From positions 1,256,581 to 1,320,580 of the forward strand of contig CAJNDT010003779.1 in assembly GCA_905221615.1 (NCBI GenBank): 64,000 bases of DNA, given 5' to 3'. The DNA is from Symbiodinium sp. CCMP2592. Its lineage: Eukaryota; Sar; Dinophyceae; Suessiales; Symbiodiniaceae. The translations under genes were made by a program, and so were the position numbers. Below the pieces are notes generated by a model. The model was not told the DNA's origin and ran no database searches. It saw nothing but the letters and a program-made list of their open reading frames with translations. Of this stretch, positions 1,204 to 34,191 are shown piece after piece. Numbering within the stretch: the first letter of the stretch is position 1; each line of letters begins with the position of its first letter.

Positions 1204-2257
1204 ATAGTCCTTGCTTGCAGAGTACAGGGCTCCATGTGCACCTTCAGCTTTTTCATCCCTTTTCAAAGGCCTTACTTGCCATGCAGCACAGGTGCAGATC
1301 GTCACGCGGCCAGGGGCGATGAAGGCCATGGGCCATGAGGGCTGCTGACGGCTACAGTGCCGAGCTCATCCCTGAAACCCGAGGATTACAATCTCGCCGC
1401 TTTTGGGTTCATGATTAGATGCCTTCCCTACCAGTGGAGGTCGCAATTGAAAAGACTGCTGTCTGTAATGCGCTGGTTCCCAGTTCCGGTTCATGTCAGT
1501 GCAGGGAGTGCAATCATGAGCGGAATGTAGGCCTAAGGGATTTATGCATTCCCTTTTTGTATTGGGGGGGGTTCTCACGGCTTGCGGTTTCGCATACCTT
1601 GACAGGCTTGGATCGTTTCTGTCGTGCTTTCGTGTCTGTCCGGGCAGTCTTGTGCAACATGGAGCCGGCTAGCGGCGCGAATTACACAATAGTTTCAATT
1701 CAAGTTCATTCCTACTCCTCTACTCCATGGCCGCGATTACGTCATCAAATGGCTTGTCGACGTGATCAAAGATATACAAACAATGTAAGACAAGGCCCCG
1801 TTTCTTTTGCAGATGCACGTTGCACCTAAACTGACAAGGTTGAAAGCAGGGGGACACATCACAGACCCCTTTCCTCAAATCATGCGACAACTTAAGCGGC
1901 AATTCGTATATTGCAGAAGAGGAGCCCCGCGTTGGAAGTTTACATACCGGCTTGCGCCCATTCGGGAGAAACTTGTTTTCGGCATGTCCAGAAATCAAAA
2001 GTGACTCATTCTATATGCTGCCGTTTCCGAACACTATGCCACTACGCGATGCAACCACGCAGGTCGACACATGTGACACATGTTCGTACACGGACAACCA
2101 ATACACGAGCATGCCACGCATGCCATGTTGCCAGTACATTACAAGGCGACGCCGGTCCTGGTGTAACCAGTGCGATTGCAGTTCGGCGGCAAGCATATAT
2201 GGAAGGCTTCCTACAAAATCCTCGCGGCGGCTGACCTGCGGAAAGAGCACGCGCGGC
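1204..2257. other. Intergenic, no gene recognised
   Basis: Mixed-composition sequence with few TTTAGGG words. ORFs of up to 136 codons occur on + (1419-1829) but show no family motif, and overlapping frames on both strands are equally open. I cannot support a gene here. Confidence 0.5.
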
Positions 2258-2283
2258 AGAGAGAGAGAGAGAGAGAGAGAAAT

Positions 2284-2322
<39 letters not shown>

Positions 2323-2328
2323 AAGAGA

Positions 2329-2365
<37 letters not shown>

Positions 2366-3100
2366 GAGGGGGAGAGAGACAGAGAAACAGAGAGACAGAG
2401 AGACACAGAGACAGAGAGACCGAGAGACAGAGAGACACAGAGACAGGGAGACAGACAGTGAGACAGACAGAGAGACAGAGAGACAGACACAGAGACCGAC
2501 AGAGAGACAGACAGAGAGACACAGGGAGAGACACACGGAGAGACAAACGGAGAGAGACAGAGAGACCGACCGAGAGACAAACGTAGAGACAGACAGAGAG
2601 ACAGAGAGGTAGAGACAGACAGGGAGACGGACGGAGAGACAGACAGCGAGACAGACAGAGAGACAGACAAGAGACAGACAGAGAGACAGACAGCGAGACA
2701 GACAGAGAGACAGACGGAGAGACAGACAGAGAGACAGTCGGAGAGACAGACAGCGAGACAGACAGAGAGACAGACAGCGAGACAGACAGAGAGACAGACA
2801 GAGAGACGGACAGAGAGACTGACAGAGAGACAGACAGAGGGACAGAGAGAGAGAGAGAGAGAGACACACAGACACACAGGCAACAGCAGACACACAGACA
2901 CACAGGCACACAGACACACAGACACAGACACACAGACTCACAGACACACAGACACGCGGACACGCAGACACACAGACGCGCACACACACAGACACACAGC
3001 CAGCCATACAGAGATACGAAGATACAGAGATACAGAGATACACAGAGGGAGCGGGAGAGAGAGAGAGAGAGAGCGCGCGAGAGAGCGAGCAACGAAGGCG
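2258..3100. repeat. Long GA / GACA purine microsatellite
   Basis: About 840 bp of almost pure purine-plus-C tract. It starts as (GA)n at 2258-2390, becomes a 12-bp type unit GACAGACAGAGA to about 2850, then CACAGA-type units to about 2990, and ends in GA-rich sequence near 3100. Open frames of up to about 400 codons on both strands here are Arg/Glu-rich or Ser/Leu/Cys-rich artefacts of the repeat and are not genes. Such tracts can form triplex DNA and can block polymerases. Confidence 0.95.
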
Positions 3101-3870
3101 AGAGCGAGATGGACGCCAATCCCCGTAAGAGTTCAGATTATGCACGTGCAACCACCTGGATCCGAAGAACTCGGGGGTACAATTTACTGTTTTGTAGCTT
3201 CCGTGGAAGCGAGCACTGTGGGTTTTTAGTTGCAACTCAGCATGCTTAATGTCGCGGGCGTATGTCGATCCGAGTTGTTTAGCTCGGCATCATCCAAAAG
3301 TTCGCTAAGCCTTGATAGTTAAGTTTTGAGGTGTTTGTGTATTCTGCAACAGTCTCTTGGAGGCCTGGAACCGCCCCCCAATTCAGAATAGGTTAGGAAG
3401 GGCAGGGGTGATTTGGGTAGGATTCGCCCCAGTGTGTGTTTGTTTTAATTACGGGGGTGCTTAATTAACAGAAGGGGCAAGTGATTCGTGGGTTTAACAT
3501 CACGGGCGGGCTGAGGCTTATCAGTTTCACCCTTAAGCCCCGGCATAGCCCCAAGTACGATGCAAAAGGTTTCAACACATGAGTCACTGGAGCTGTAGGG
3601 CTCGGGTTTGCCATTGCCGAGCTACCGTTTACGCCGGCTGGCGGGTAGCTTGACTCCAATATGGCTGCCACTCCCGGCCGCTCCATGAGCCCTACATCCC
3701 AAAGCCATCAAGCCCGGAAACACAAAAGTTGCCCTTAGTTCAGTAGTCTTCCTTAGCTGTTACTGGTCTTGAAATGTTTTTGTTTCACGGGTCATCCCTG
3801 TATACCCATAGGCCTATAGGATGGGGGGAGATCTTAGTACGAAGACCATCCGTACAATCTCGTCCTCCCT
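3101..3870. other. Intergenic, no gene recognised
   Basis: Unique sequence, relatively poor in telomere-like words. I see no motif-bearing ORF. Confidence 0.5.
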
Positions 3871-17950: not shown

Positions 17951-19803
17951 GGAAGTCGTGTCATCCGCGAGCTAATCCAGGATCTGCCGCGCCTGCTGGC
18001 GGTTTTCAACAACTTGAGCCTCCAGATCGACGACGGCATGGAGGCTCGCGCACTTCGGTGGTGAAGCAGGAACTTCAATTGTTCCTACATGCTGATGTTT
18101 GCATGTGTATGTTTTATACGCATGTTGATGATAAGACTGCATGCATACACCCGTACTGGCGTGCATACCTACCTACTTACATACACATACATACATACAC
18201 AAATACATACAGCTGTATGAAAACACGTATTTAGTTACTAGGAAACTGGGAAACAATACTTCAGCTCCGTTTATTGCGCCTTATAGAAGTCTGCCCAAAA
18301 CCATTATGCCAGGTCGTCGAAAGCCGTTAAAGAAATCCGTATACAACCGTATAACATCCTATATTCAGCCCGCCAGAATTCGATAAAGCCCTGTCAGATC
18401 CTTTTAGCAAGAAACACACCATACACCAGCAAACAAAAAAAGTATAAGCCCCAAACCCTAGACCCCTTTGAACGTATAGGCCTTGATGGATGTCGTCCGA
18501 ACTTGGTTGGCAGACTTTAAGAAGGAGCTCAACAGAAAAAAGCAAAAACACACGTTTGAATCCCCCAGAGTTTCAGGTGCCAGAGCTTTATGAGCCCGTT
18601 CAGAACTTTCTCGGCCACTGCGAGTGGAAGGCCTCGTCGTTCATTCCTAGCTGAAGGTTCAAAAAGGGCTTGTGAACCCGAAACCCGAAACCTTAAACCC
18701 TGAACCCTAAAAGCGAACTTCATGGTTCAGGGCTTAGGGTTTAGGATGTAGGCCCGAGGATCTGGGCTCATTGGTTTACGAAGAGTTTGAGGTTTAGGGC
18801 TTCGGGGTACAGCAAGTGATGGTAGGTTGAGGTGGGCTTACCAGATAGCTAACGAGTCTTCGAGACGCAAAACATGCTGCTTTCGTTCGCGCAGTGCCTG
18901 GTTTGGGCTGATTGCTGTTCCCGGACTACAAAGGCGCCAAGAGAAGGCAATGCTACCGAGCCATCATCATCTTAGGTCACGTTCGGCTGGCTTAAAAAGA
19001 GCTAACTATCTAAGCCCTGGCCAGCAAATTAGATTCCAACAGCATTGAAGCCTTGAACATACGAGGCCCAGCCACTTCCTTCACTACATTTGCCTGAGAC
19101 CTGCAACTCCCTTGCCTTATTCCTATCTTTGCTTTTCAGAAAGCACACGGGGGTGTTCAGATTCGGGCCCTTAAACCCTAAACCTTAATCATGGAGCTTC
19201 CAATTTCAAGAAGCCCCCTTCGTGAGATTTTAAACGTCCAAACCATAGACCCTAAGCAGCCCTAATCGCTAGATGCTCAACCCCAAGCCTTAAGCCCAAA
19301 TCGCAAACTCAACAACAAATGTCAGCCCAAAAACCCTAAACTCTAAAACCTTAAGCTCTGGAAAGGCAGCACCTTCCGTCGACTGCATGGGCTTGCCGCA
19401 GCTGCCGGGCAAGAGTAGGGGCCTCAGTCTCTCCCACGCTAAGCCCTGCTCTGACCCTAAGAAATCTGGACAGAGCCTCCAAGCAAGCACCAGCTTGATC
19501 CTGTTTCAGAGGTTGCCCACAAACTGCAACAAAAAGCCCTTATGCCCCTTAACCCTAAACCTTAAACCCCGAACCTGAAAGGAACCCTAAAAGGAACCCC
19601 AAACCTTAAACCCCCAAGGAGAAAGTGGGCAGATTGAAGGGTAGTACCCTCATAGAAGCCTTAAAGAAGCCCTTACAGATCCTCTCTACGGTGGACAGAT
19701 TGAAGGGCTTCCCGTGCCGAGGTTGCCAGGAGCTCCTTTGCAGCGAGAAAGCTGCGGCCGCCGGACTTCGCCAGAATCCCAAGCTCTCGTCTCTCTGGTT
19801 CTT

Positions 19804-19890
19804 CGGGTTTAGGGGTTAGGGTCCCTAAACCCTAAACCCTAAACCCCTAAACCCTAAACCCCTAAACCCCAAACCCTAAACCCCGAAACC
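19804..19890. repeat. Head-to-head telomere-type repeat
   Basis: About two G-strand units (GGGTTTAGGGGTTAGGG) run straight into six or more C-strand units (CCCTAAA with CCCCTAAA variants). This G-strand-then-C-strand order is what fused chromosome ends look like. A chance meeting of scattered words is the alternative. Confidence 0.7.
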
Positions 19891-20818: not shown

Positions 20819-20839
20819 CCAGAAAGTTGGAATAGGGTT
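20819..20839. mobile_element. Left remnant of the family F element split by the retrotransposon
   Basis: CCAGAAAGTTGGAATA followed by the 5-bp target copy GGGTT. The remainder of the same palindrome resumes at 31561 and ends TTCCAACTTTCTGG at 31629. Confidence 0.85.
20835..20839. repeat. Target site duplication, left copy
   Basis: GGGTT directly before the 5' LTR, matched by GGGTT at 31561-31565 directly after the 3' LTR. Five bases is the usual length for Ty1/copia integrases. Confidence 0.9.
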
Positions 20840-20965
20840 TGTGAAGGCGTTCCTCTGCCCACTTTTACAGTCGGCCTTACGGCACAGGCTTACGGAATCG
20901 AGAAGTGTACCAAGTTCGTTCGTGAGGCCATTTTTGTGCGATCAAAGAAGTCTTGCAGCTTCACA
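20840..20965 (+). repeat. 5' LTR, 126 bp
   Basis: It starts TGTGAAGGCGTTCC and ends GCAGCTTCACA, giving perfect 7-bp inverted ends TGTGAAG/CTTCACA within the TG...CA rule. It is identical base for base to 31435-31560. It is very short for an LTR. No TATA box is evident, and a T-rich CATTTTTGTG near the 3' part is the only promoter-like feature I can point to. Confidence 0.95.
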
Positions 20966-21026: not shown

Positions 21027-24000
21027 ATGGATTCAGGCCTGCGTCGGCGGCGGAGCAGAGCAGCTTCGGAGGGCCAAATTGATAGTGCGGCTGGTGGGGA
21101 CTTAGTTCTGGCGTCGAGTGTGTCAGAAGAGACGACCACTGGTCAGGCAGGTGTCGGGGCGACAGTGTCCCCGTTTTGGTCTGAACGAATGCAGTTAGAA
21201 GCTCAATTGCAGGCAGCAAGGCCGCCTGATCTGGATGAGGTTGTCGCTCGTCTGGAATCTGGACCCAGCAGCGCATCGACGGAGCTTCGGCGGAATGATG
21301 GTGAGATGCCAACTCCGAGTGGCCCTCCGGTGAGTCACGGTCCTTGTGTGGACCGCGGAGGGGCAGCCGAATCTACGCCACGCGCTGTGAGTGCGCAAGC
21401 TGCGGAACCAGCTCCGCCAATCGTGGAAAGTGACCCAGATCCGCGTGATCCGTCGCAAAGTGCGGGGATGAGACCGGGCGAGCGATTGATCATGGAGCGC
21501 ATGAAGGAGTTGCTTGAACATGTATTCCATCAGAATTCTGAGCTTGTGGAACAGAATAAGGTAGTTCAGGGTCGGCTAGAAAGGTTGGAAGAAGAAGCGA
21601 CCATGCGGTCAGCCTCGTCGGGTGGACACAGGGATCAGTTGGATGCGGTTCGTGAATTCTTAGATGTTGCCTCAGGGTTTTCCGGAAATCGAGGGACTGT
21701 TGTCGGCAATACGGGCATCAAAGGACCAGCTGGCTTGTCAAGCGTACCAGCAGCAATTCAAGGGGATTGTAGTGCCTCTGGGTTTGGTAGGTATGTATCA
21801 GCTAGGGAAAGGGGTTCGCTAGACTACCACGAAGGTGTCGAGGAAGGAATGCGGAGAGCTTTAGCTCGGAGGGATCAAGAAGAATCGCGGACACTCGTGC
21901 CGCAAGTGCCGATGGTGCCCGCGGCGCTCGGGCATGGACGAGACCTTAGTCCCCCTCCTCCACCGCGACCTCGTGATGAATCTTACAGGCCCACGACCCC
22001 TAACGGTACTGCAGTTCCTTTGGGAAGCCCCCCTGAATCTCCTACGCCACAGTTTGGATCGCCTCAGCAGTCGTTGTTACGAATGAGCTTTGAAGGCCAC
22101 CCAGCTAGATATATGGAAGGCATGGTTAGGAATTCTGCTCCAGGTGTTACTGCCACAGTCGATGGAGTCAGTACGGAGACCATGTTGGGGTCAACGTCCA
22201 TGTTTGGGTCTATGTCGATGGGAATGGCTGGTGCTCCTGATGCTCGACCGGGCTTAAGTCCATACAGACAGCCGCCAACCCCGACGGTGCCAATCTCCCC
22301 AGCTGGCGCTTCCATGCCGGCTGTGAGTAACGGCCATGTTGCTGCGTCACCTGGGCGGGACCCGTACTCTCCAGGGGATCGTACTTGGTGGAAGCTCCCG
22401 TCCCTTTGTGGTCCACTAGAAGAAGATGCCTGTATCGCGGCAGCTGATTGGATCACTCAAGTTTCTCCCATAATGGGTGATCTGTCACCGGCTAGTGCGG
22501 TGTGGTGGCGTCGCGTGCTTGCTACAGCTCAAGATGCGTACAATCGGTGGCAGGTGGCAGGGGCGCTTGAGAAGGCGAGCGTGACATGCGAAATTCCAGC
22601 AGAGTTGCAGGATTCTCGGTATGCTCGTCTAGAGTCTAGGGCTGTTGGTATGTTGTTGGAGGTTTTTCCGGAAGAAATAAAGCAACGTATGATAGCCGAT
22701 GCTGATATGTCTGCTGCGAATGCCATGTTTCGGTTGTACTTGGCCTATCAACCGGGAGGCCTTAGCGAGCGGCAGCGCTTACTACAAGGATTAACGGATC
22801 CTGGAACCGCAAAGTCAGGTCGAGATATGGCGAATCGCCTTCAAAAGTGGCAACGGTGGCTTAGCAGGGCACAGACCCTGCTCATAGCGGTCCCGGATGC
22901 AGCGCTTTTATTGGCAGGATTGGATCGGCTGGCAGCGCCTCTTTTAGCCACCCACCCTCAGGTAGCGTTCCGATGCAACAGCGCCAGGAACATCCACCAA
23001 CTTGACTTCAGCCCTAGCACGGTGACTGTGATGGGTTATGCCAGGCTTCTTCAGGCAGAGGCGGAAACTCTAGCATTGTCGGGATCTGATGTGGACTTGT
23101 CAGCTGGTGGTCCCAAACCTCCGAAGACTCCTAAAAATCCTAAGGATGCCTCTCTAGCCAAGGTTGAAGAAACGGGAAAAGGGAGTAAAGGGGAGAAAGG
23201 GGGGAAGGGAGACTCGAGCAAGGGTTTGATCAAAGGTGTGCCTTCCGAGGGTAAGGGAAAGAGCAAAGGGAAGGATTCCAAGCCCGAGGGGCCTGTACCT
23301 TCAGCTTCTGCCAAGGGTGTATGCAAATTTTATCTTTCTGCCACAGGGTGTAAGTTGGGAAAGAACTGCAGAATGACCCACGACACGCAACGGGCACAAG
23401 CGGAGGGACGTTGCTTCGCATGCGGGTCGGGGAAGCATAAGATAGCGGATTGCACTAGGCCTAAGGGTGACACGTCGGCTCAGGCTGAGGCCGCCCCGCC
23501 GGTAGCCAAAGCTGTTGGTCAGAGCGACCTCAGGGGGGAGTCCTCTAACGCCTCATCAAATGTGTCGGCCAGTGCTCCCGCAAATCAACAGTTTGCTCCA
23601 CCGACGGTACAAGACTCCACTAGCAACGCTTCTGGTCACGGGTCTCAAAGGGATGGTAACTCTGGTGCGGGGAATGCCTCGGTAAGATCGGTTGATGCTC
23701 AGGCTTCCCAGGAGAGGCTTGTGGAAGAGGCTATTGGGTTTCTTCGAGGGATCAGATTGGCGGCTGTGCAGGGCCCATCGAGTGGGGAGGATTCTGACAG
23801 TCAGGACCCCTCACCGCGCTCGGAAATCTCGCAAGACCGCAATAAGGACCCTAAAGTGACGAAGATTAAATCCCAAAACCCTAAGCATAGGACTTGTCTC
23901 CTGGACGGAGGGGCAACCCACTGCCTACGGACGGGCGCAGCATCGGAGCTGCAGCTTGCCACACCGACCAGGGTTGGGCTAGCTCAGGGTCAAGCGCACA

Positions 24001-27000
24001 TGCATGTGAACGCTCAGGGAACGTTGCTCACGGATCAGGTAGTACAACCGATCTGCTCGTTGGGGTTGTTGGTGAAGGAGTGCGGGTACAAGGTGTCATG
24101 GGATGATCAAAGGTTTGAGCTCCGAGGACCGAACGGCGAGAGAATTGAGACGAAACTTCGGGGTGATTGTCCTGTAGTTTCGGAGGGTCTTGGATTGGCT
24201 ATGATTAAGGAAATCGAAGATAAGAGACACTCCAGAGCCGTGCGACAGCTCTATCTTCGGGCAGTCAGACAGAAGGCTGCGGGAGTCGAAGGGTCGTCGG
24301 AATTAAGGGTTGCAGGTGTCACGTTGATTGAGATACTGGAGTGGCTGAATCGAGAGGCTGGGGAGCTGGGAGAGAGTGTGTTATCGCAGGTCCCTCCAGA
24401 CAGTTTTCAGGTAGAGCATCATTCGTTGGTGCTTAATCGCCGCAAACGTCGGGCCTTGGATCGGGCAACCGGGATAGTTATCCATGTGTTCGCGGGTCAC
24501 CTAACATCTCGGGATCTTAAGGGCCTTCCAGCTGGAGTTGAAGTGCTGTCGGTAGGGAGTGAGCTTGGGCGCGATCTCAGGGATGATAATCTCTTTGCTT
24601 ATTTGCTGGGCCTTGTCCGTGATGGCAGAGTGGTAGGGATCATCGGAGGGGTTCCGCAGAGAGGTGCCGGCTTGATAGTCCAGGTTCTGCGAATGCTCAT
24701 GTTGCAGTGGCTATGTGAGCAATTGCATCCAGGTAGGTCCCTGCTAGCTATTCAGGGCTTAAAGAGTGTGACCAACTTGCGAGCGCAACTTCCGGAGGAG
24801 GAGCATCCTCCGCTGTGTCTGTGGGAGGTGCCAGTCATACGCAGGATGCTCAAGTCGGGTGCCTATCAAGTAGCCACGTTCGATGGGACTAACCGTCTCT
24901 TGACCAACCAGGAGAAGTTATGGCAATGGCTTAATGGGCAGCATACAGTTCTAAGGCCAAACAAGGAAGGAGATTTAGGTGTCAGGCTTGAGCGATCTAG
25001 AGGGGTCGGGAGTTGGAGTCAGGGGCTGTGCACGTGCATAGGACAGGCTCTCAAACACCACTGCGAGCAGCTCTCCTTGATAGCTGTGAAATCGCAGGCC
25101 AAGTCCCAGGTACCAGACTCCACGCCACAGGTCCAGGCTCTATCCCAGCGCGAGCTAGCCTTTAAAACCCATTGCGAGTCCGATCATATCACCTTTCGTC
25201 CTGATTGTCAGGTTTGTCTCAGCGGGGCAATTAAGACCCACATGCACTTCCGCAACAAACATAAGGCACGCAACGCACTTACGCTTTCAGTAGACCTTGC
25301 GGGCCCACTTGTGAGAGCGAGGGATCAGGAGAGTAGCCCTTTGCGACCGAGTGATCAGATGCGGTATCTGTTGGTGGCGACGTTGTCGGTGCCATGGTTT
25401 GAGGGTGGTAAGCTGGTAGACCTTACTAAAGGGGACTCCCACCGTGATCATCCTATCCCTCCCGATGGCGATGATGAGATGTTTCTTGCCGATGGCATGC
25501 TGGATGGACTGGGATGTGAAGTTGAGGAGGCTCCAGGTGAAGAGGCTGGGGGCGTAGGTCTGGGGGAGGTCTTGACGCTTGACGCAGACGACGAGGATGG
25601 TCCCGAAGACTCGGTAGGCGCAGTGAAGGCAGGAAAGAAAACGGATGAACAGGAATCGTATTGGCGTAAGGAGTGTGAGCGTCTTCAACAGCCGTGTAGA
25701 GTGCGACATCTCGTATTTGCGATCCCAATTAGGTCTAAAAATGCTCGGGTAGTCCTTTCAGCTGTTCAGCAGTTGTTCTCCAGAATACGATCGCTTGGAT
25801 TAGGAGTACGTCGACTTCACACAGATCAAGGTACGGAGTTTCGCAACGGGTTGCTAGATGCCTGGGCTGAAGCTCGGGATATTCATCGTACGTATTCCCT
25901 TCCTGGAGACAGTCGTTCCAACGGGCTCGCTGAACGAATAGTGGGTCAAGTCAAGGCAGGGGTACGCAGTCTGCTTGCGGGGGCTAATCTCGGAGCTACG
26001 TATTGGCCTCATGCGGCGCGGCAGTGGAGCGCACAGCATCTGGCCCGGACGTTGCAGGAGCTCGGACACAAGCCGGCCAAACCCTTGGTTCCGTTCGGTA
26101 CCCCCGTGGTTGTGAAGCGTAGGGAACTGCCTGCCGACAAGAAGCATACTTTCAAATCACGCACCTTGGTAGGAAAGGCATTGGCTCCTAGTGTTAGAGT
26201 CCCGGGCGCGACTGTAATAGAGGTCCCAGACGACTCCGGCGGAACTCGCCTCTACACTGCTCCGGTGACGTACCAGCATGTGCGCACGCCTGCGCAGTTT
26301 GCGGGTCATGAAGCTGATCTGCTGCTTCCTCCCGGCACCCGAATACGCAGGAAGACACCGGACCCACTCCTGAGTGCTGTAGTAGGCGACCGCTCCAGTA
26401 ACAATCGAGCTTCGCTTATTGGGGGGCAAGCCAACCCATGCGAGGATCATGTTGCTCTGCTTATTGGGGGGCAAACCAACCCATGCGAGGATCATTCTGC
26501 TTTGCTTATTGGGGGGCAAGCCAACCCATGCGAGGATCATGTTGCTCTGCTTATTGGGGGGCAAACAGATGCCGGAGTGAGCTCCGGGGGGGAGTCGGTG
26601 ATGCAAAAAGAATCGGAAAGACACGGCGCTTCTGATGATCATGATGCTCAGGATAGGTGGAGTTTCGGAGAAACCTATGTGAGGGTTGATGGTAACAATC
26701 GCGAAGAAAAGCAGAAAGACAGTGGTGAGAGTGAAAACGGTGAGGGTAGAGAGAGTTGGGTAGCTGGAAGCGCGTCCTCCACAGAAGCTGCGGTAGATGT
26801 TGTGGGACGTGAAGCAAGGATTCTAAGCGAGGCGATGGCCGAGAAGTTGCTTAGCTATCCGGATCCGCCCACGCGAGAAGCTCTCGACAAGGTTGTGCAG
26901 GCTGCTCTGCAACAGGGGAACCGGGCACATCGACGTGTAGACAAGGAGAGTAAAACACGAGGGTGTAAATCTCTTACCTGTGGATTTTGGGCTTATGGAG

Positions 27001-28463
27001 GTTCTGTAGGCTTGAGTAGAGACGCCATGCAACATCCGAACTTGACCCGTCTTGTGAACTGGTACCTAGCCGAGCAGTATCCCGACAAATCCTGGGCTGC
27101 AATCCGAATTACCCTTAACAACCAGTCGAGTCCACACAAAGACCATCACAATCAACCTGGTACGAGTAACTTATGCGTCCCACTCACCAATCACAGTGGA
27201 GGTCGTGTGTGGGTGGAAGGAGAAGGCGAGGAGGAAATACAGGTTGGGTCTAGGAGGGTTAAAGGGTCATTTCTCGGAGACTCGAATTCTGTGGTAGAGT
27301 TCGATCCGCGGAAGCTGCACTTTACGGAACGGGCCTTAGGAGATAGAAGGGTGCTCATAGCGTATACTCCCAGATCGCTTGAAAAGGTGGCTCCTGTAGA
27401 CAGAACGTTGCTGCAGTCGCTAGGCTTTCCTCTCCCTATTGACCGAGCCCCAGATCCGCGTCCTCCCTATACGAAGGCCCTCTACTACTCTATACAGGAC
27501 CCAGACGAGTGTCAGAGCCCAGCAGGTTTTGTCGACGTCTCCGATAGTTCGGGGGATGAGGCAGTGGCCGCCCTGTGTGCGGTTGAGGGGTCGTGGGAGC
27601 AGATAGATAGTGAGGGTTACGAGGGTTGGATAGCAGCTGCTAAGCGACACGTAGCACAAGAGCAGAAGCACATGTGTGACGAGATGCAAGCTGGCAACGA
27701 CGATGCGGCGACAATTACTGCCGAGTGTATCTCAGCGCTGTACTCTGAGATTCGGAAGGCGGAGGCGACAGTCGAGTGGTTGCGTGCCCAGAGTTTGAAA
27801 GCGTGTGGCTCGGGCGATGAGGCCCAGTTGAGGGTGTTGCTTGCGCGTGAGTCGTTGGTTGAAGACGAAGCTCAGTTGGTCGATGAGGCTGCTTGGACTC
27901 CGTTGGCCGATGATCCAGTAGAAGATCGGTGTGACCCTCATTTAAGTCCTCAGGATTATGAGCTCCTGAATGGGGACGGGCGTGTGGTGAGGCCAGATCA
28001 GGGTCCACAGTCATGGCAGGCTGAGCCGGCTGGACCGCTTCACACACAGACCATCAGCCACGCTGAGATCAACAAGGATCCTAGGAAGTGGGACTCCACG
28101 GTTGGTGAGGAACTGGGCTCGATCTTCGATGTACACAAAACGCTCAAGAGAATAGACGACGACGAGGTCGAGAGACTTCGTGAGGCCGGTTATGTTATTG
28201 AATGGGTTCCGACCAAGGGGATCTTTCAGATTAAAGCTCATACGGCACGACAAAAGTGCCGCTTAGTGGCATGTGGCAATTACGCCAGTGACGCAGGCTC
28301 GAAGGATCGGTCTCACAAGCAAGCGCTCTATGCTGGAGGCCTTGACTCCCTGGCATTGCGATGCCAGCTCAGACATGCGGGCCTCAAAGTCTCCCAGAAT
28401 CACGACAAGCCAAAAGCGGACCAGTGGACCGCCGCAGGCTCTGACATCAAAACGGCGTTTTAA
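21027..28463 (+). CDS. Copia gag-pol polyprotein, part 1 (gag, protease, MTase-like, integrase, oxygenase-like, RT start)
   Basis: 2,478 codons ending in TAA inside reverse transcriptase motif A (…DIKTAF then stop). The ATG at 21027 is the first in frame after the TGA at 20985, 61 bp beyond the LTR. Order by residue: Pro/Ser-rich N-terminus; predicted coiled coil 156-193; Lys/Gly-rich linker about 712-755; CCCH finger 766-785; CCHC knuckle 796-809; protease with DGGATH at 960-965; methyltransferase-like module about 1150-1340; integrase HHCC 1382-1397 and D1423, D1600, E1636; 15-residue tandem repeats 1797-1841; oxygenase-like module about 1975-2125; RT N-terminus from about 2352. In a working element the product would be cleaved by its own protease, packaged in particles with the RNA, reverse transcribed and integrated. 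The downstream frame 28464-31097 is the same frame. Confidence 0.92.
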   Translation: MDSGLRRRRSRAASEGQIDSAAGGDLVLASSVSEETTTGQAGVGATVSPFWSERMQLEAQLQAARPPDLDEVVARLESGPSSASTELRRNDGEMPTPSGPPVSHGPCVDRGGAAESTPRAVSAQAAEPAPPIVESDPDPRDPSQSAGMRPGERLIMERMKELLEHVFHQNSELVEQNKVVQGRLERLEEEATMRSASSGGHRDQLDAVREFLDVASGFSGNRGTVVGNTGIKGPAGLSSVPAAIQGDCSASGFGRYVSARERGSLDYHEGVEEGMRRALARRDQEESRTLVPQVPMVPAALGHGRDLSPPPPPRPRDESYRPTTPNGTAVPLGSPPESPTPQFGSPQQSLLRMSFEGHPARYMEGMVRNSAPGVTATVDGVSTETMLGSTSMFGSMSMGMAGAPDARPGLSPYRQPPTPTVPISPAGASMPAVSNGHVAASPGRDPYSPGDRTWWKLPSLCGPLEEDACIAAADWITQVSPIMGDLSPASAVWWRRVLATAQDAYNRWQVAGALEKASVTCEIPAELQDSRYARLESRAVGMLLEVFPEEIKQRMIADADMSAANAMFRLYLAYQPGGLSERQRLLQGLTDPGTAKSGRDMANRLQKWQRWLSRAQTLLIAVPDAALLLAGLDRLAAPLLATHPQVAFRCNSARNIHQLDFSPSTVTVMGYARLLQAEAETLALSGSDVDLSAGGPKPPKTPKNPKDASLAKVEETGKGSKGEKGGKGDSSKGLIKGVPSEGKGKSKGKDSKPEGPVPSASAKGVCKFYLSATGCKLGKNCRMTHDTQRAQAEGRCFACGSGKHKIADCTRPKGDTSAQAEAAPPVAKAVGQSDLRGESSNASSNVSASAPANQQFAPPTVQDSTSNASGHGSQRDGNSGAGNASVRSVDAQASQERLVEEAIGFLRGIRLAAVQGPSSGEDSDSQDPSPRSEISQDRNKDPKVTKIKSQNPKHRTCLLDGGATHCLRTGAASELQLATPTRVGLAQGQAHMHVNAQGTLLTDQVVQPICSLGLLVKECGYKVSWDDQRFELRGPNGERIETKLRGDCPVVSEGLGLAMIKEIEDKRHSRAVRQLYLRAVRQKAAGVEGSSELRVAGVTLIEILEWLNREAGELGESVLSQVPPDSFQVEHHSLVLNRRKRRALDRATGIVIHVFAGHLTSRDLKGLPAGVEVLSVGSELGRDLRDDNLFAYLLGLVRDGRVVGIIGGVPQRGAGLIVQVLRMLMLQWLCEQLHPGRSLLAIQGLKSVTNLRAQLPEEEHPPLCLWEVPVIRRMLKSGAYQVATFDGTNRLLTNQEKLWQWLNGQHTVLRPNKEGDLGVRLERSRGVGSWSQGLCTCIGQALKHHCEQLSLIAVKSQAKSQVPDSTPQVQALSQRELAFKTHCESDHITFRPDCQVCLSGAIKTHMHFRNKHKARNALTLSVDLAGPLVRARDQESSPLRPSDQMRYLLVATLSVPWFEGGKLVDLTKGDSHRDHPIPPDGDDEMFLADGMLDGLGCEVEEAPGEEAGGVGLGEVLTLDADDEDGPEDSVGAVKAGKKTDEQESYWRKECERLQQPCRVRHLVFAIPIRSKNARVVLSAVQQLFSRIRSLGLGVRRLHTDQGTEFRNGLLDAWAEARDIHRTYSLPGDSRSNGLAERIVGQVKAGVRSLLAGANLGATYWPHAARQWSAQHLARTLQELGHKPAKPLVPFGTPVVVKRRELPADKKHTFKSRTLVGKALAPSVRVPGATVIEVPDDSGGTRLYTAPVTYQHVRTPAQFAGHEADLLLPPGTRIRRKTPDPLLSAVVGDRSSNNRASLIGGQANPCEDHVALLIGGQTNPCEDHSALLIGGQANPCEDHVALLIGGQTDAGVSSGGESVMQKESERHGASDDHDAQDRWSFGETYVRVDGNNREEKQKDSGESENGEGRESWVAGSASSTEAAVDVVGREARILSEAMAEKLLSYPDPPTREALDKVVQAALQQGNRAHRRVDKESKTRGCKSLTCGFWAYGGSVGLSRDAMQHPNLTRLVNWYLAEQYPDKSWAAIRITLNNQSSPHKDHHNQPGTSNLCVPLTNHSGGRVWVEGEGEEEIQVGSRRVKGSFLGDSNSVVEFDPRKLHFTERALGDRRVLIAYTPRSLEKVAPVDRTLLQSLGFPLPIDRAPDPRPPYTKALYYSIQDPDECQSPAGFVDVSDSSGDEAVAALCAVEGSWEQIDSEGYEGWIAAAKRHVAQEQKHMCDEMQAGNDDAATITAECISALYSEIRKAEATVEWLRAQSLKACGSGDEAQLRVLLARESLVEDEAQLVDEAAWTPLADDPVEDRCDPHLSPQDYELLNGDGRVVRPDQGPQSWQAEPAGPLHTQTISHAEINKDPRKWDSTVGEELGSIFDVHKTLKRIDDDEVERLREAGYVIEWVPTKGIFQIKAHTARQKCRLVACGNYASDAGSKDRSHKQALYAGGLDSLALRCQLRHAGLKVSQNHDKPKADQWTAAGSDIKTAF
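21492..21605 (+). other. Gag coiled-coil segment
   Basis: Residues about 156-193 have heptad-like Leu/Val/Met spacing with Glu/Lys/Arg between (MERMKELLEHVFHQNSEL and onward). A role in gag self-assembly is the usual inference. Confidence 0.6.
23322..23453 (+). other. Gag zinc fingers: CCCH plus CCHC
   Basis: C766-x8-C775-x5-C781-x3-H785 is a CCCH finger. C796-x2-C799-x4-H804-x4-C809 is a retroviral-type zinc knuckle. A Lys/Gly-rich linker precedes them. Both motifs bind single-stranded RNA in known families, so a nucleocapsid role is likely. The CCCH + CCHC pair is unusual outside algal copia elements as far as I recall. Confidence 0.85.
23892..24180 (+). other. Retropepsin-like aspartic protease domain
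   Basis: LLDGGATHCLR around D960 matches the catalytic D-S/T-G-A motif with Gly in place of Ser/Thr, followed by beta-rich sequence. Position between the fingers and integrase is as expected for copia. Gly at the second position occurs in some copia proteases but could lower activity. Confidence 0.75.
24474..25040 (+). other. Degenerate C5-methyltransferase-like module
   Basis: Residues about 1150-1340 begin IVIHVFAGH (F1155-A-G, like motif I FAG). They continue with GVEVLSV and DLRDDNLF, then IIGGVPQR (P1210-Q1211), where a cytosine methyltransferase would have G-P-P-C. FAG to P is 55 residues, close to the roughly 60 of DCM enzymes. CLWEVPVIRRML...VATFDG follows. The catalytic Cys is absent, so methylation by this copy is unlikely. 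I recall dinoflagellate copia polyproteins with an intact GPPC version at this position. The assignment is from motif spacing alone. Confidence 0.5.
25170..26300 (+). other. Integrase (HHCC zinc site, D-D-35-E core, acidic insert)
   Basis: H1382-x4-H1387-x6-C1394-x2-C1397 is the N-terminal zinc site. SVDLAGP holds D1423, HTDQG holds D1600 and SNGLAE holds E1636, with exactly 35 residues between the second Asp and Glu. D1 to D2 is 177 residues, far longer than in typical copia integrases, owing to a Glu/Asp-rich insert at about 1461-1560. This enzyme inserts the DNA copy with a 5-bp stagger, consistent with the observed GGGTT duplication. Confidence 0.9.
26415..26570 (+). repeat. 45-bp in-frame tandem repeats (3.4 copies)
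   Basis: Units at 26415-26459, 26460-26504, 26505-26549 and a partial fourth encode LIGGQANPCEDHVAL-type 15-residue repeats. They differ at only a few bases, so expansion is recent. They lie between integrase and the oxygenase-like module. Confidence 0.95.
26949..27401 (+). other. 2-oxoglutarate/Fe(II)-oxygenase-like module
   Basis: Residues about 1975-2125. SPHKDHHNQ gives H2037-x-D2039. A strand GGRVWVEG follows, then KLHFTE gives H2098 and GDRR gives R2107/R2108. HxD to distal His is 59 residues and His to Arg 9-10, the geometry of the double-stranded beta-helix 2OG oxygenases (as in prolyl hydroxylases), with all iron ligands present. Known family members hydroxylate protein side chains or nucleic acid bases. 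The substrate here cannot be read from sequence. It is not part of standard copia pol. Confidence 0.6.
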
Positions 28464-29240
28464 AATGCACCGTTGGATCTCGGTGACAAACGTGTCATTC
28501 TACTCAGACCGCCAGCCGTTATGGTGCGGAACGGCTGGGTATCGCCTAACGAAGTCTGGCGCGCCGATGGCGCTATCTATGGTTTGATTCAGAGTCCGTC
28601 CGCTTGGTCTCACCACAGGGACAGCAGAGTCCCACGCTTAAAGGTCCAGCTTGGTGATCAGGGTTTTCGGCTAGTCCAATCAAGATCGGATCCTAACATC
28701 TGGTTGCTGCGGAAGAGTTTGCCTGATGGCACACTGGGACAGGACATTGAAGCCGTTGTAGGCATATATGTCGACGACCTTCTCGTCACCGGACCCAGAT
28801 GTAAGGTTGATGCGGTGCTGGATGCTTTCCGGGCGGAGTGGCAGCTGAGCACTCCAGCTTATGCTACTGATGCGGGTGGCATCAACTTCTGCGGCATGCA
28901 CATCAGTCAAGCTGACGACGCGATCTATGTTGATCAGACCCAGTATGTGGGAGAGCTTTTGGCTCGATACCCGGATGTTGAAGGAACGCTTCATACGCCT
29001 TTCCTGAAAGACCACTCGGGGGAGGAACCGTGCAGCAAGGTAGATCCGGCTCGCCTCAGGCTTGGACAGAAAGTAGTAGGGGAGCTTCTCTGGCTCTCAG
29101 CCAGAACACGCCCCGATTTATCATTCGTCGTGAGTCGGCTGGGGCAGCTCGTTTCTAAGGATGCTGAGTTCACCATTGCAGCTTCTCACAATGTGTTGCG
29201 GTATCTTAGGCACACGAGCCACTACCGGCTGAAGTACGGT
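28080..29240 (+). other. Reverse transcriptase domain, interrupted by TAA
   Basis: It starts near KWDSTVGEELGSIF, reaches motif A DIKTAF at 28443-28460, has TAA at 28461-28463, and continues with NAPLD, GAIYGLIQSP, YVDDLLVTGP (YVDD at 28767-28778) and LLWLSARTRPDLSF. The motifs and their order are those of copia-type reverse transcriptases. The catalytic Asp residues are all present, and only the stop codon breaks it. Confidence 0.93.
28461..28463 (+). other. In-frame nonsense codon TAA in RT motif A
   Basis: The codon falls between TTT (Phe) and AAT (Asn), where copia elements usually carry Leu. One base change from TTA would produce it. The frame before and after is identical, so it is a substitution and not a frameshift. 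Confidence 0.9.
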
Positions 29241-31097
29241 GACGCAGGGTCCGGGGGAGAATTGCCTGAAGGGTGGCAAGAAGGCTCCCCCGGTTTGCTT
29301 GAAGTTTTTGCGGATGCATCCTTCTGCCCGGGGTCCGAAAGGTCCCAGAGCGGCATAGTGTTGCTTTGGGGGAGGGCTCCAGTCGCATGGTGCTCGATGA
29401 GACAAAGCACCGCGTCTCTCTCAACGTGTGAGGCGGAGCTCGGTGCGACGCTGGATGCTATGACGCTAGGTAACTGCTTGATGCCCTTGCTGAACGAACT
29501 TTCCCAAACCTCTCAACAGGCCGTAGTTTATAATGATAACGTCGGTGCTTGTACAGTCATGCAAGTCCCGGCAGGGGCGTGGCGAACACGCCACCTGAGG
29601 TTGAAGGCACAGTGGTTTATGCAGCAGCTTGAGTTCGCTAAGTACACGGTGTATCATGTTCCGGGAAAGTGGATGTTGGCTGACCTCGCTACCAAGGCGT
29701 TGCAAGCTAGTCGTTGCCTTGAGTTGCTTCGACTCATGCGTTTGGACTTAGGCGAAGAGCCGTGTGTGAGTGCTCTTCGGGGGGAGTCGGGCCCTTCAAA
29801 CGACGAAAATATGAGTCATGGCAAGCGTGAGCGTGGTTGCAATCAGTTGCGTGACTTTGGTCGTGCCCAGTTGCTGGAGCGTGGTCGTCGTGAGAGCAGC
29901 GCGTGTAGCAGTCTCGGGTCGCTTGAGCGTGCTTGTCTTGAGCCTAGCGGAGTAGCGTCGAGCGTTGGAGCGACGGCTGCAGGACCTGCAAGCGCTGCCA
30001 CCTTGATATCCCTCTCCTCGTCATCTGTAGGGGTTGAGGACAGTTGGTTGCGTAAAGCGTTGTGCTTGCTTGTTTTGGCATCGCGAATTTGGGCCGCGCG
30101 AGCTCGCGAAGTAGTCACGACTGTCGGCTTGGACGAAAGTGGTGAGGAGGCTAAGCTTCCGAGGAACCACGTTGTGGGCATGCTTGTGACCGTGCTTGTG
30201 GTTGTCGCCGTGCTTGCGTTGGTATCTTGGTGTTGCCGTGGTGAGCCCAGGGATCCAAGTGAACCACAGGTGAGGGCAGCTGCTTCACTCGATGAGGTTC
30301 AGAGTGAGTGGTCTCTGATAGAGCCGTCTCCTTCGAGAGGTGGGCAGAGTAGGATAATCATAAATCCTGATTCCTTAACCCTTCATGGTTGCAGTAGTGT
30401 CCCAAGCTTTGTACCCCCTGCAGGTCTGCGGCAAAGAATCCCTAAGGTTGCTAGCCGTCCCGGCGCCTCTGATGACCCTAGTACGGTTCCCCTCCCTATG
30501 CCTAATTTAGGTTGTGCGGAGGGGAGGAGGATTGCAGACGGAGGAGGACTGCAGCTCGAAGAGTCAGCAGAGGCACGAGCTGGAGTCAGACATCTTCGGG
30601 AACTTCTGGCAGAGTGTAAAGTTACCATGTATGCGGACGATCTCCACATTACTGGTCCGAGGGCTGTCATCGAAGCGATTGTTGAGCGCTTCAATCGTGA
30701 ATCTGGCGACCTGGCAGCTGCAGGCCTAACTGATGCGAGACTTCTGCAGACATTTGACCAGAAGGCGGAGTCCTCACGAGAATCTGGTGCGAGAACGGAG
30801 GCCGCTCTTCTCGGTCGTACAGTTGAGACATTCTTGCATGATGTGCAATCATTTGACCAGAGGGCGGAGTCCTCACGAGACTCTGGTGCGAGAACGGAGG
30901 CCGCTCCTCTCGGTCGTGTCATCGAGGCAGTATTGCACGCTCCTGAGGTTCGGAATGTTACAGACGCATCATGGCCTGATGAGGTTCTTGATCCAGGCGA
31001 TGAGAGTGCAGAATGGTTCGGCAGTGTAGCGAGCTCAAGCCCAGCGTCATCGGAGAGAGAGAAAGCGCTACCGCCGTACCAGTTTGCGCAGAGGTGA
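28464..31097 (+). CDS. Copia polyprotein, part 2 (RT, RNase H, TM segment, YADD fragment)
   Basis: Same frame as 21027-28463, open for about 877 codons after the TAA. No ATG lies near its start, which fits a continuation and not a separate gene. It holds the RT palm with YVDD (28767-28778), the connection region, RNase H (about 29295-29715), then a copia-atypical tail of about 460 codons. The tail is Ser/Arg-rich, then has one strongly hydrophobic segment (30171-30236), a YADD fragment (30630-30641) and two 33-residue repeats (30751-30948), ending at TGA 31095-31097. The tail could be a C-terminal accessory or env-like region; I do not recognise a family for it. Confidence 0.88.
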   Translation, partial: NAPLDLGDKRVILLRPPAVMVRNGWVSPNEVWRADGAIYGLIQSPSAWSHHRDSRVPRLKVQLGDQGFRLVQSRSDPNIWLLRKSLPDGTLGQDIEAVVGIYVDDLLVTGPRCKVDAVLDAFRAEWQLSTPAYATDAGGINFCGMHISQADDAIYVDQTQYVGELLARYPDVEGTLHTPFLKDHSGEEPCSKVDPARLRLGQKVVGELLWLSARTRPDLSFVVSRLGQLVSKDAEFTIAASHNVLRYLRHTSHYRLKYGDAGSGGELPEGWQEGSPGLLEVFADASFCPGSERSQSGIVLLWGRAPVAWCSMRQSTASLSTCEAELGATLDAMTLGNCLMPLLNELSQTSQQAVVYNDNVGACTVMQVPAGAWRTRHLRLKAQWFMQQLEFAKYTVYHVPGKWMLADLATKALQASRCLELLRLMRLDLGEEPCVSALRGESGPSNDENMSHGKRERGCNQLRDFGRAQLLERGRRESSACSSLGSLERACLEPSGVASSVGATAAGPASAATLISLSSSSVGVEDSWLRKALCLLVLASRIWAARAREVVTTVGLDESGEEAKLPRNHVVGMLVTVLVVVAVLALVSWCCRGEPRDPSEPQVRAAASLDEVQSEWSLIEPSPSRGGQSRIIINPDSLTLHGCSSVPSFVPPAGLRQRIPKVASRPGASDDPSTVPLPMPNLGCAEGRRIADGGGLQLEESAEARAGVRHLRELLAECKVTMYADDLHITGPRAVIEAIVERFNRESGDLAAAGLTDARLLQTFDQKAESSRESGARTEAALLGRTVETFLHDVQSFDQRAESSRDSGARTEAAPLGRVIEAVLHAPEVRNVTDASWPDEVLDPGDESAEWFGSVASSSPASSEREKALPPYQFAQR
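29295..29715 (+). other. RNase H domain
   Basis: Asp in EVFADASF, Glu in CEAELG, Asp in VVYNDNVGA and Asp in MLADLATKAL supply the D-E-D-D metal site in the copia order. HLRLKAQWF is the typical preceding helix. It degrades the RNA strand during reverse transcription. Confidence 0.9.
30171..30236 (+). other. Predicted transmembrane segment in the polyprotein tail
   Basis: About 22 residues, VVGMLVTVLVVVAVLALVSW then CC, flanked by Lys/Arg before and Arg after. A weaker hydrophobic stretch (WLRKALCLLVLASRIW) lies about 30 residues upstream. The copia core has no membrane segment, so this is an addition. Confidence 0.75.
30612..30720 (+). other. Second RT-catalytic-like fragment (YADD)
   Basis: CKVTMYADDLHITGPR, followed by AVIEAIVERF, resembles the element's own GIYVDDLLVTGPR...AVLDAF and also LINE-type YADD motifs. 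Only the motif C region is present; motifs A, B and D are absent, so it cannot act as a polymerase on its own. Confidence 0.6.
30751..30948 (+). repeat. 99-bp in-frame duplication (33 residues, two copies)
   Basis: CATTTGACCAGA(A/G)GGCGG starts at 30751 and again at 30850. Each copy encodes FDQ(K/R)AESSR(E/D)SGARTEAA and onward. The copies differ at several sites, so this duplication is older than the 45-bp array. Confidence 0.9.
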
Positions 31098-31434: not shown

Positions 31435-31560
31435 TGTGAAGGCGTTCCTCTGCCCACTTTTACAGTCGGCCTTACGGCACAGGCTTACGGAATCGAGAAG
31501 TGTACCAAGTTCGTTCGTGAGGCCATTTTTGTGCGATCAAAGAAGTCTTGCAGCTTCACA
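31435..31560 (+). repeat. 3' LTR, 126 bp
   Basis: Identical to 20840-20965 over its whole length, with the same TGTGAAG/CTTCACA ends, followed by the target copy GGGTT. Confidence 0.95.
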
Positions 31561-31629
31561 GGGTTTCATGGTAGGATCCCCTATATTTTGCCTTAAAGGG
31601 ACTATGAGAATGATATTCCAACTTTCTGG
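31561..31629. mobile_element. Right remnant of the interrupted family F element
   Basis: It starts with the target copy GGGTT and contains GGTAGGATCCCCTATA and CCTTAAAGGG, ending TATTCCAACTTTCTGG. Together with 20819-20839 it gives a family F element close to the copy at 38771-38861. The outer flanks (CTTCTACTGT here, GGGAACTCC at 20812-20820) also match the flanks of that copy. Confidence 0.85.
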
Positions 31630-33393: not shown

Positions 33394-33484
33394 TGTTTAG
33401 GGTTTAGGGTGTATGCTCCCTAAACCCTAAACCCTAAACCCTAAACCCCTAAACCCCTAAACCCTAAACCCTAAACCCTAAACC
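33394..33484. repeat. Head-to-head telomere-type array
   Basis: Two G-strand units (TTTAGGGTTTAGGG), a spacer of about 9 bp (TGTATGCTC), then about nine C-strand CCCTAAA units. The orientation is that expected at a fused pair of chromosome ends. Confidence 0.75.
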
Positions 33485-33906
33485 GTGGGAGTTTTGCTTT
33501 GGGGGTTTCAGGCTTCAGGGTCGACAGAGGGGTATGAGGTTTTAGAGTTTAGGGCTGTTCAGGATCCTCCTGTAGTGCAGGGCTTTAGTTACATTTGCTA
33601 GGATCCACAGGTTGTTTTGGGATTTCAGGCGTGTAGGATTTGCGGGGCTGTAGTGGTGTACGGTGTATGAGGTTCAGGGTGCAGGGATGTTGTGTACTAT
33701 AGGGCTTTAGGGTTGCAGTGTGTTTTCGTTCGGGCAGTGCTCCATGATTTCGAAGTCTAGTTTATGTGGTATTGGTTTGGGGATGTGGGTGTTCAGGTCC
33801 ACAGGGTTTCAGGTTGAAGCACGGAGCTTGGGATGTAGGAGTTACAGACAGGGTGTGGGGTTTCGGGATCAATGGCTGTGGCGAATTGTCCTGCTCGCTC
33901 TTATAC
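33485..33906. other. Intergenic, G/T-rich degenerate telomere-like sequence
   Basis: Many diverged GTTTAGGG/GGGTGTAGG words. The 65-codon ORF at 33720-33917 runs through them and is not supported. Confidence 0.5.
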
Positions 33907-34118
33907 CTAAACCCTAAACCCTAAACCCTAAACCCTAAACCCTAAACCCTAAACCCTAAACCCTAAACCCTAAACCCTAAACCCCTAAACCCCTAAACCC
34001 CTAAACCCTAAACCCTAAACCCTAAACCCTAAACCCTAAACCCTAAACCCTAAACCCTAAACCCTAAACCCCTAAACCCTAAACCCTAAACCCTAAACCC
34101 TTAAACCCTAAACCCTAT
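33907..34118 (-). repeat. Largest telomere-type array, (CCCTAAA)n
   Basis: About 30 units of CCCTAAA with occasional CCCCTAAA, roughly 210 bp, C-strand on +. It is interstitial here: unique-looking sequence and MITE copies continue on both sides. A true chromosome end would stop here. Confidence 0.95.
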
Positions 34119-34191
34119 TATAACTATATTCTGGTATAGCCGGTGGAACCTGCAAAGGCCTGATCACTTGCATCAAGCCTGGAAGTCCCAA

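Follow-up and report, generated by a model that had tools for sequence, protein, structure and literature searches.

A predicted 2-oxoglutarate/Fe(II)-oxygenase module in the pol of a Symbiodinium copia element and its relatives

Does a copia retrotransposon of a dinoflagellate carry, between its integrase and its reverse transcriptase (RT), an oxygenase able to modify DNA, RNA or a protein? The question is raised by an element lying in a 64,000-nucleotide stretch of Symbiodinium sp. CCMP2592 (contig CAJNDT010003779.1; the whole stretch is hereafter the window), in which an earlier note, made from the letters alone, had described a potentially active 2-oxoglutarate (2OG)/Fe(II)-oxygenase-like module at 26949-27401. 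We found that these positions fall within a module (26862-27419) that, by its predicted fold and its ligands, is a member of the 2OG/Fe(II) superfamily. Direct reading confirmed one open frame of 2478 codons running through integrase and module, with H2037, D2039, the GGRVWVEG strand, H2098 and R2107/R2108 (27345-27350) all where the note had placed them. The claimed spacings also hold, with 59 residues from D2039 to H2098 and 9 from H2098 to R2107; H2037 and H2098 are 61 residues apart in this copy. The features concerned are the following.

21027-28463, + strand: gag-pol open frame of 2478 amino acids, ending at a TAA inside the RT core
26862-27419, + strand: module of 2OG/Fe(II)-oxygenase fold, residues 1946-2131 (model aligned from 15 to 197 to NgTET1, with a trailing helix to model residue 200)
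27135-27143, + strand: H2037-K-D2039, predicted Fe(II) ligands
27198-27221, + strand: GGRVWVEG strand, residues 2058-2065
27318-27320, + strand: H2098, predicted third Fe(II) ligand
27345-27347, + strand: R2107, predicted ligand of the 2-oxoglutarate carboxylate

We asked whether these residues are kept in relatives of the element. Residues 1890-2150, used as query, matched a single protein, P0002, a 2820-residue polyprotein named 'RE1' from Symbiodinium sp. CCMP2592 (34% identity, E 3.6e-13). The corresponding part of P0002 then matched 47 polyproteins, P0002 being one of them. Where a source is named it is Symbiodinium, the others being from ENA or EukProt, and together with the window these polyproteins provide 48 domains. 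The first His is kept in all 48, as is the Arg aligned with R2107. The Asp is kept in 47, P0013 having Gly, and the second His in 47, P0047 showing a gap where its gene model misses a stretch. The ligand retention that the note had asked of sibling copies is thus found, the four residues standing together in 46 of the 48 domains (P0013 and P0047 being the exceptions) and being invariant in all 31 domains of a non-redundant set (<85% identity), in whose alignment, gaps aside, 23 of the 168 columns do not vary. In the GGRVWVEG strand, the first Gly is found in 48/48 domains and the Trp in 47/48. Of the two arginines proposed, R2107 aligns with the relatives and R2108 does not. From the second His to the Arg the spacing is 9 in 47/48 domains. 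Between the two His residues, 45 domains have a distance of 70 or 71, one has 68, and the window alone has 61; P0047, with its gap, makes up the 48.

The position of the module is as constant as its residues. In searches with the segments of P0002, which covered the window in its 2478-residue frame, the order gag, CCCH finger, protease, methyltransferase-like module, integrase, 2OG module, RT and RNase H was the same in 48/48 polyproteins (modules detected: 2OG in 48, integrase 47, methyltransferase-like 45, RT 45, protease 43, RNase H 41, gag 38, CCCH 38), and integrase precedes 2OG, which precedes RT, in 44/44 polyproteins where all three were detected. Median pairwise identity among 25 of the 47 relatives was 0.54 for the 2OG module and 0.55 for RT, and the oxygenase module is therefore held about as tightly as RT; the other values were 0.61 for protease, 0.58 for CCCH, 0.49 for the methyltransferase-like module, 0.47 for RNase H, 0.44 for integrase, 0.30 for gag, and 0.30 and 0.39 for linkers. 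Identity matrices of the 2OG module correlated with those of RT (26 relatives; Mantel r 0.58, reached by 1/2000 permutations) and of the methyltransferase-like module (r 0.74, reached by 0/2000). The 2OG and RT trees share the subclades P0021/25/26/32, P0037/38, P0039/45, P0002/3 and P0007/8 and conflict on P0016, which falls in a different group in each, on well-supported branches. The module sits after integrase in the P0002 group, in P0048 and in the window, three lineages that have diverged from one another; this favors an early capture, after which the module was mostly inherited together with the element.

The predicted structure points in the same direction. Window residues 1932-2158, aligned with 20 relatives, were modelled with AF2, giving a predicted local distance difference test (pLDDT) of 84.1 and a predicted template modelling score (pTM) of 0.80. 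The model is a double-stranded beta-helix, as the earlier note had anticipated, and Foldseek returned 76 matches in the PDB at E <=0.001; among the best 50 of these 76, 46 are 2OG or JmjC-type oxygenases, and 8vni, 8ag3, 3dkq and 4xaa give no class. The 2OG fold requires the HxD to come after a strand and the last strands to open with the other His and the Arg. The model agrees with this, having the HxD behind strand 94-99 and the later His and Arg where the last strands begin. Among the Foldseek matches listed, CcTet, ALKBH2 and an algal prolyl hydroxylase stood at the top, followed by kinds that include NgTET1 and PHD2. With VIA-align, NgTET1 came first (Z 11.2, 11.1 and 11.0; root-mean-square deviation 3.0-3.2, 152 aligned), followed by a Burkholderia 2OG oxygenase (9.9), PHD2 and ALKBH5 (9.7), CcTet (9.3) and TET2 (8.8). 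TET-like DNA dioxygenases therefore head both lists, CcTet among the Foldseek matches listed and NgTET1 in VIA-align, and the nearest structures to the predicted fold are of the TET/JBP type, a membership that sequence comparison does not bear out. Among viral models, the matches comprised 2OG proteins of giant viruses and phages, some of them bearing a JBP1/TET label, together with many nameless proteins; a cyanophage protein labelled DNA endonuclease V ranked 34 among them. In PHROGs, positions 26820-27500 weakly matched phrog_274, which carries this same label (E 0.021, residues 94-183 of 227), and phrog_4931 (E 0.42); the phage label of phrog_274 may hide a 2OG fold.

A second module of the polyprotein, between protease and integrase, bears on what the oxygenase might act upon.

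24402-25139, + strand: module (residues 1126-1371) of a kind with C5-methyltransferase fold in relatives, placed by BLASTP homology to P0002 up to residue 1212, alignment and a model of P0018
24477-24500, + strand: VIHVFAGH in this module
24639-24662, + strand: IIGGVPQR in this module, with Gln at the position of the catalytic Cys

The C5-cytosine DNA methyltransferase fold is predicted for the relative P0018, not for the window copy, whose homology rests on BLASTP and alignment; the segment searches with the P0002 module did not find it in the window. The commonest variant of motif IV is GGPPGR (29 copies), and the window copy has GGVPQR. Pfam on 4 full relatives and 14 aligned pieces gave no methyltransferase match, a PDB profile search with this module was negative, and so was a comparison with M.HhaI, whose score was reached by 33/100 shuffles. 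The methyltransferase identity is thus seen in the predicted fold only, not in the sequence.

Our preferred reading, to which we give an even chance, is that residues 1946-2131 are a 2OG oxygenase captured long ago and now a working part of pol, with a DNA base as its likeliest substrate. Once protease has cleaved the polyprotein, the oxygenase domain would accompany integrase, or remain close to it, through particle and pre-integration complex to the cDNA and the target site. As suggested by the conserved residues, Fe(II) would be held by H2037, D2039 and H2098 and 2-oxoglutarate by R2107, and with O2 a substrate would be oxidized. That substrate would most likely be a base of the element's own cDNA or of the target site, 5-methylcytosine or thymine, considering that the fold is nearest to TET-like dioxygenases and that a C5-DNA-methyltransferase fold is predicted in the relatives' polyprotein. 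5-Methylcytosine is a plausible target, the Symbiodinium genome being for the most part CG-methylated (PMC5890265). Thymine is plausible because dinoflagellate DNA holds 5-hydroxymethyluracil at 12-68% of thymine, enriched over repeats, with Maverick elements, and not Copia, named as the most enriched (PMC11071213); the accessible text names no dinoflagellate enzyme for this base. Base oxidation may then weaken the silencing of the new copy or change its chromatin. The potentially active oxygenase of the earlier note is therefore supported by the fold and by the ligands of siblings, from which we infer activity and substrate.

Several results weigh against this reading. Neither Pfam nor NCBIfam gave a 2OG family for the window domain, so that the profile match expected by the note failed to appear. 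No TET/JBP model appeared among the Pfam matches of 21 aligned domains (E <=10) or of 9 short relatives (E <=5), although HMMER filters may hide weak matches. When the profile was compared with single sequences, the NgTET1 score was reached by 5/60 and 2/60 shuffles and that of ALKBH2 by 7/60 and 8/60; PHD2, whose substrate is a protein, was the best of the three, with 0/60 shuffles reaching its score with either reference row. The displayed NgTET1 alignment lies off the active site, and that of PHD2 covers the last His and the Arg. In structure, NgTET1 is ahead of the remaining 2OG folds by about 1.3 Z, and the query-normalized template modelling scores among the PDB matches listed are low (0.22-0.44), the domain being therefore a remote member of the fold. 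Among 17 short relatives examined (described below), 13, all of one group, keep HxD and H and lack the Arg at +9. An in-frame TAA (28461-28463, after SDIKTAF) cuts the RT core of this copy, the same frame resuming beyond it. Finally, the catalytic Cys of motif IV is present in 0/44 aligned copies of the methyltransferase-like module (2 more are gapped), so that this module is by itself no argument for a methylation cycle.

The comparison of the profile with NgTET1, PHD2 and ALKBH2 was rejected as a family assignment, as it was not decisive. Pfam on the 21 aligned domains gave as the only 2OG-type names Asp_Arg_Hydrox (E 0.059) and WelO5 (E 0.093), each in one member and non-significant, and PDB sequence searches with the domain and with profile A1 gave chance matches only (Fdc1, E 0.17; neopullulanase, E 1.8). 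Relatives were found neither in prokaryote genomes nor in viral contigs, in narrow searches with patterns from the P0002 subfamily, nor in phages, where P0050 was the only query.

The oxygenase could also act on RNA or protein, removing N6-methyladenosine (m6A) from the element's genomic RNA, as ALKBH5 does with m6A RNA, or hydroxylating a capsid or host protein, as prolyl hydroxylases do with peptides, and we regard this as a serious, if somewhat less probable, alternative. It has a precedent in the ALKBH5-like 2OG domain of Ty3/Gypsy elements of the orchid Phalaenopsis, which are also long terminal repeat (LTR) retrotransposons with an oxygenase with HxD...H ligands, and whose domain, the one tested case among the retrotransposon 2OG domains found, was shown to be active there and acts on m6A RNA (PMC9289625). 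The orchid elements differ from ours in being Gypsy and not copia; their domain is an additional open reading frame outside pol and a clear AlkB by sequence, neither of which is true of the window domain, and its acquisition in Phalaenopsis is described as recent, in contrast to the 47 diverged polyproteins that have the domain in common here. An RNA or protein substrate is further disfavored by NgTET1 being ahead by more than 1 Z and by CcTet coming first among the Foldseek matches listed. The PHD2-like His-to-His spacing of 61 is peculiar to this copy, against 70 or 71 in 45/48 domains, and spacing was rejected as a link to PHD2.

That a former oxygenase is kept in pol as a structural or binding module without catalysis appears improbable to us, because a scaffold would not need the His-Asp-His-Arg set that is invariant in the 31 non-redundant domains. 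Such a loss would nevertheless fit the missing Pfam match, the short relatives without Arg at +9 and the neighboring methyltransferase-like module, whose 44 Cys-less copies suggest a lineage that keeps folds without their chemistry. A chance motif in an unrelated linker between integrase and RT is by far the least probable explanation. A loose form of the motif (HxD, 45-70 residues, H, 8-13 residues, R or K) arose in 1324/2000 shuffles of the polyprotein, which holds two further matches elsewhere, and there is no profile match; the motif alone was consequently rejected as evidence. Because diverged relatives conserve the residues, and because of the fold predicted for it, the module stands above chance, and this explanation is refuted. 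More speculative, and in our opinion doubtful, is an extension of the preferred DNA-base reading in which a TET-like dioxygenase after integrase and an S-adenosylmethionine-binding, Cys-less, DNMT3L-like module before it would form a read-and-oxidize device at the integration site, making this the first TET-type oxygenase of a retrotransposon and a candidate, or the domesticated ancestor of one, for 5-hydroxymethyluracil synthesis in dinoflagellates.

Short proteins related to the module were also found. A profile search among domain-size proteins gave 20, all from ENA, of which 13 (P0054-P0063 and P0065-P0067) form one group, reading like GGRVWVEDENGD...RRFHQVEPHEGHMWALAAYTPRA. Members of this group are the nearest branch to the window domain, on long branches and with weak support (91/49). 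The window domain itself is on a long branch (2.05), and we drew no origin from this tree. Two members of the group, P0055 and P0062, carry an Arg at +8 and not at +9. Nine of the 13 stop directly after the domain (such as ...GFPLPSK), suggesting that the group may represent small separate genes.

Since the orchid retrotransposon precedes it, an element of this type is not wholly new in kind. Fungal DNA transposons with TET/JBP genes (Kojima 2025, PMC12730594) likewise bear a TET-like fold; the carriers are DNA transposons and Helitrons only, and membership by sequence is clear there and not here. In this survey of fungi, NgTET1 supplies the secondary-structure line of an alignment figure, and no TET/JBP gene is noted in a retrotransposon. 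NgTET1 of Naegleria gruberi (4lt5, 5cg8, 5cg9) has 14% identity to the window domain and no sequence-profile match, with spacings of 50 and 10 compared to 61 and 9 here; human PHD2 (EGLN1) has 12-13% among the matches listed, and relatives of the element mostly have 70-71 between the His residues. Cytosine methyltransferases are also carried by Symbiodinium retrotransposons (de Mendoza 2018, PMC5890265), which are likewise dinoflagellate elements with DNA-modification folds; those enzymes can methylate CG de novo and sit in other classes, LINE and DIRS elements being named in the accessible text, whereas here a Cys-less fold stands in a copia pol together with an oxygenase; the Copia superfamily of Symbiodinium is said, in the text accessible, to lack any DNA methyltransferase domain. 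Among the literature matches listed, none describes a 2OG oxygenase in a retrotransposon of the copia type or of a dinoflagellate, subscription papers and preprints being mostly outside the scope of the search. If true, an intact oxygenase site in a copia pol beside a methyltransferase fold would suggest that retrotransposons too carry base-oxidizing tools; this lineage may profit from chemically modifying DNA, RNA or proteins. The domains allow direct expression and assay on thymine and 5-methylcytosine, making the old 5-hydroxymethyluracil question testable.

The element is complete as an insertion. The order protease, integrase, RT and RNase H, the RVT_2 domain and the LTRs with a 5-bp duplication place it in Ty1/copia. 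Its ends and remaining modules are as follows.

20835-20839, no strand: target-site duplication GGGTT, left
20840-20965, + strand: 5' LTR, 126 bp, TG...CA, identical to the 3' LTR
23322-23381, + strand: gag CCCH zinc finger, residues read directly
23412-23453, + strand: gag CCHC knuckle, residues read directly
23892-24230, + strand: region homologous to the P0002 protease segment, which we take to be an aspartic protease from its motif LLDGGATHC (23898-23924)
25125-25907, + strand: integrase zinc finger (HCESDH..DCQVC, 25170-25217) and core, from segment search and motif
26409-26566, + strand: tandem 45-bp repeats (15 residues, LIGGQ[AT]NPCEDH[VS]AL), linker between integrase and oxygenase module
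28473-31097, + strand: continuation of pol past the stop in the same frame, with RT and RNase H
28767-28796, + strand: RT motif YVDDLLVTGP, second window frame
29310-29327, + strand: RNase H motif ADASFC, second window frame
30177-30230, + strand: hydrophobic segment, second window frame
31435-31560, + strand: 3' LTR, 126 bp
31561-31565, no strand: target-site duplication GGGTT, right

With mismatch-free LTRs (0/126), TG...CA termini and the duplication GGGTT, the insertion is probably recent, and this copy with identical LTRs is young but, as read, non-autonomous. Several Pfam scores in the window lie below cutoff: RVT_2 just so (E 1.5e-6, 28.4 against 31.6 bits; above cutoff in P0007, P0009, P0048 and P0019), integrase rve (E 6.3e-4) and zf-CCCH_4 (E 0.062; above cutoff in P0007, P0009 and P0019). 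An antisense open frame (26157-26642) spans the in-frame 45-bp repeats.

Within the 64-kb window, we found no Rfam match at gathering thresholds, no tRNA and no dinoflagellate spliced leader (<=3 mismatches allowed). Telomere-like CCCTAAA interstitial arrays flank the element on both sides (19802-19883, 33397-33478 and 33878-34130), and a long pyrimidine/purine-biased simple repeat (2011-3235) reads as open frames (SLSLS, RERER). Downstream of RNase H, the second frame encodes a strongly hydrophobic segment (30057-30230, residues 529-586), present also in 34 of the 36 relatives with at least 60 residues there (19-residue mean hydropathy >=1.9), which may form a tail of envelope-like or membrane type in copia. 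Near the C-terminus, MYADDLHITGP (30627-30659) is a second RT-like motif, similar to YVDDLLVTGP of the same frame, and perhaps reflects a partial duplication of RT.
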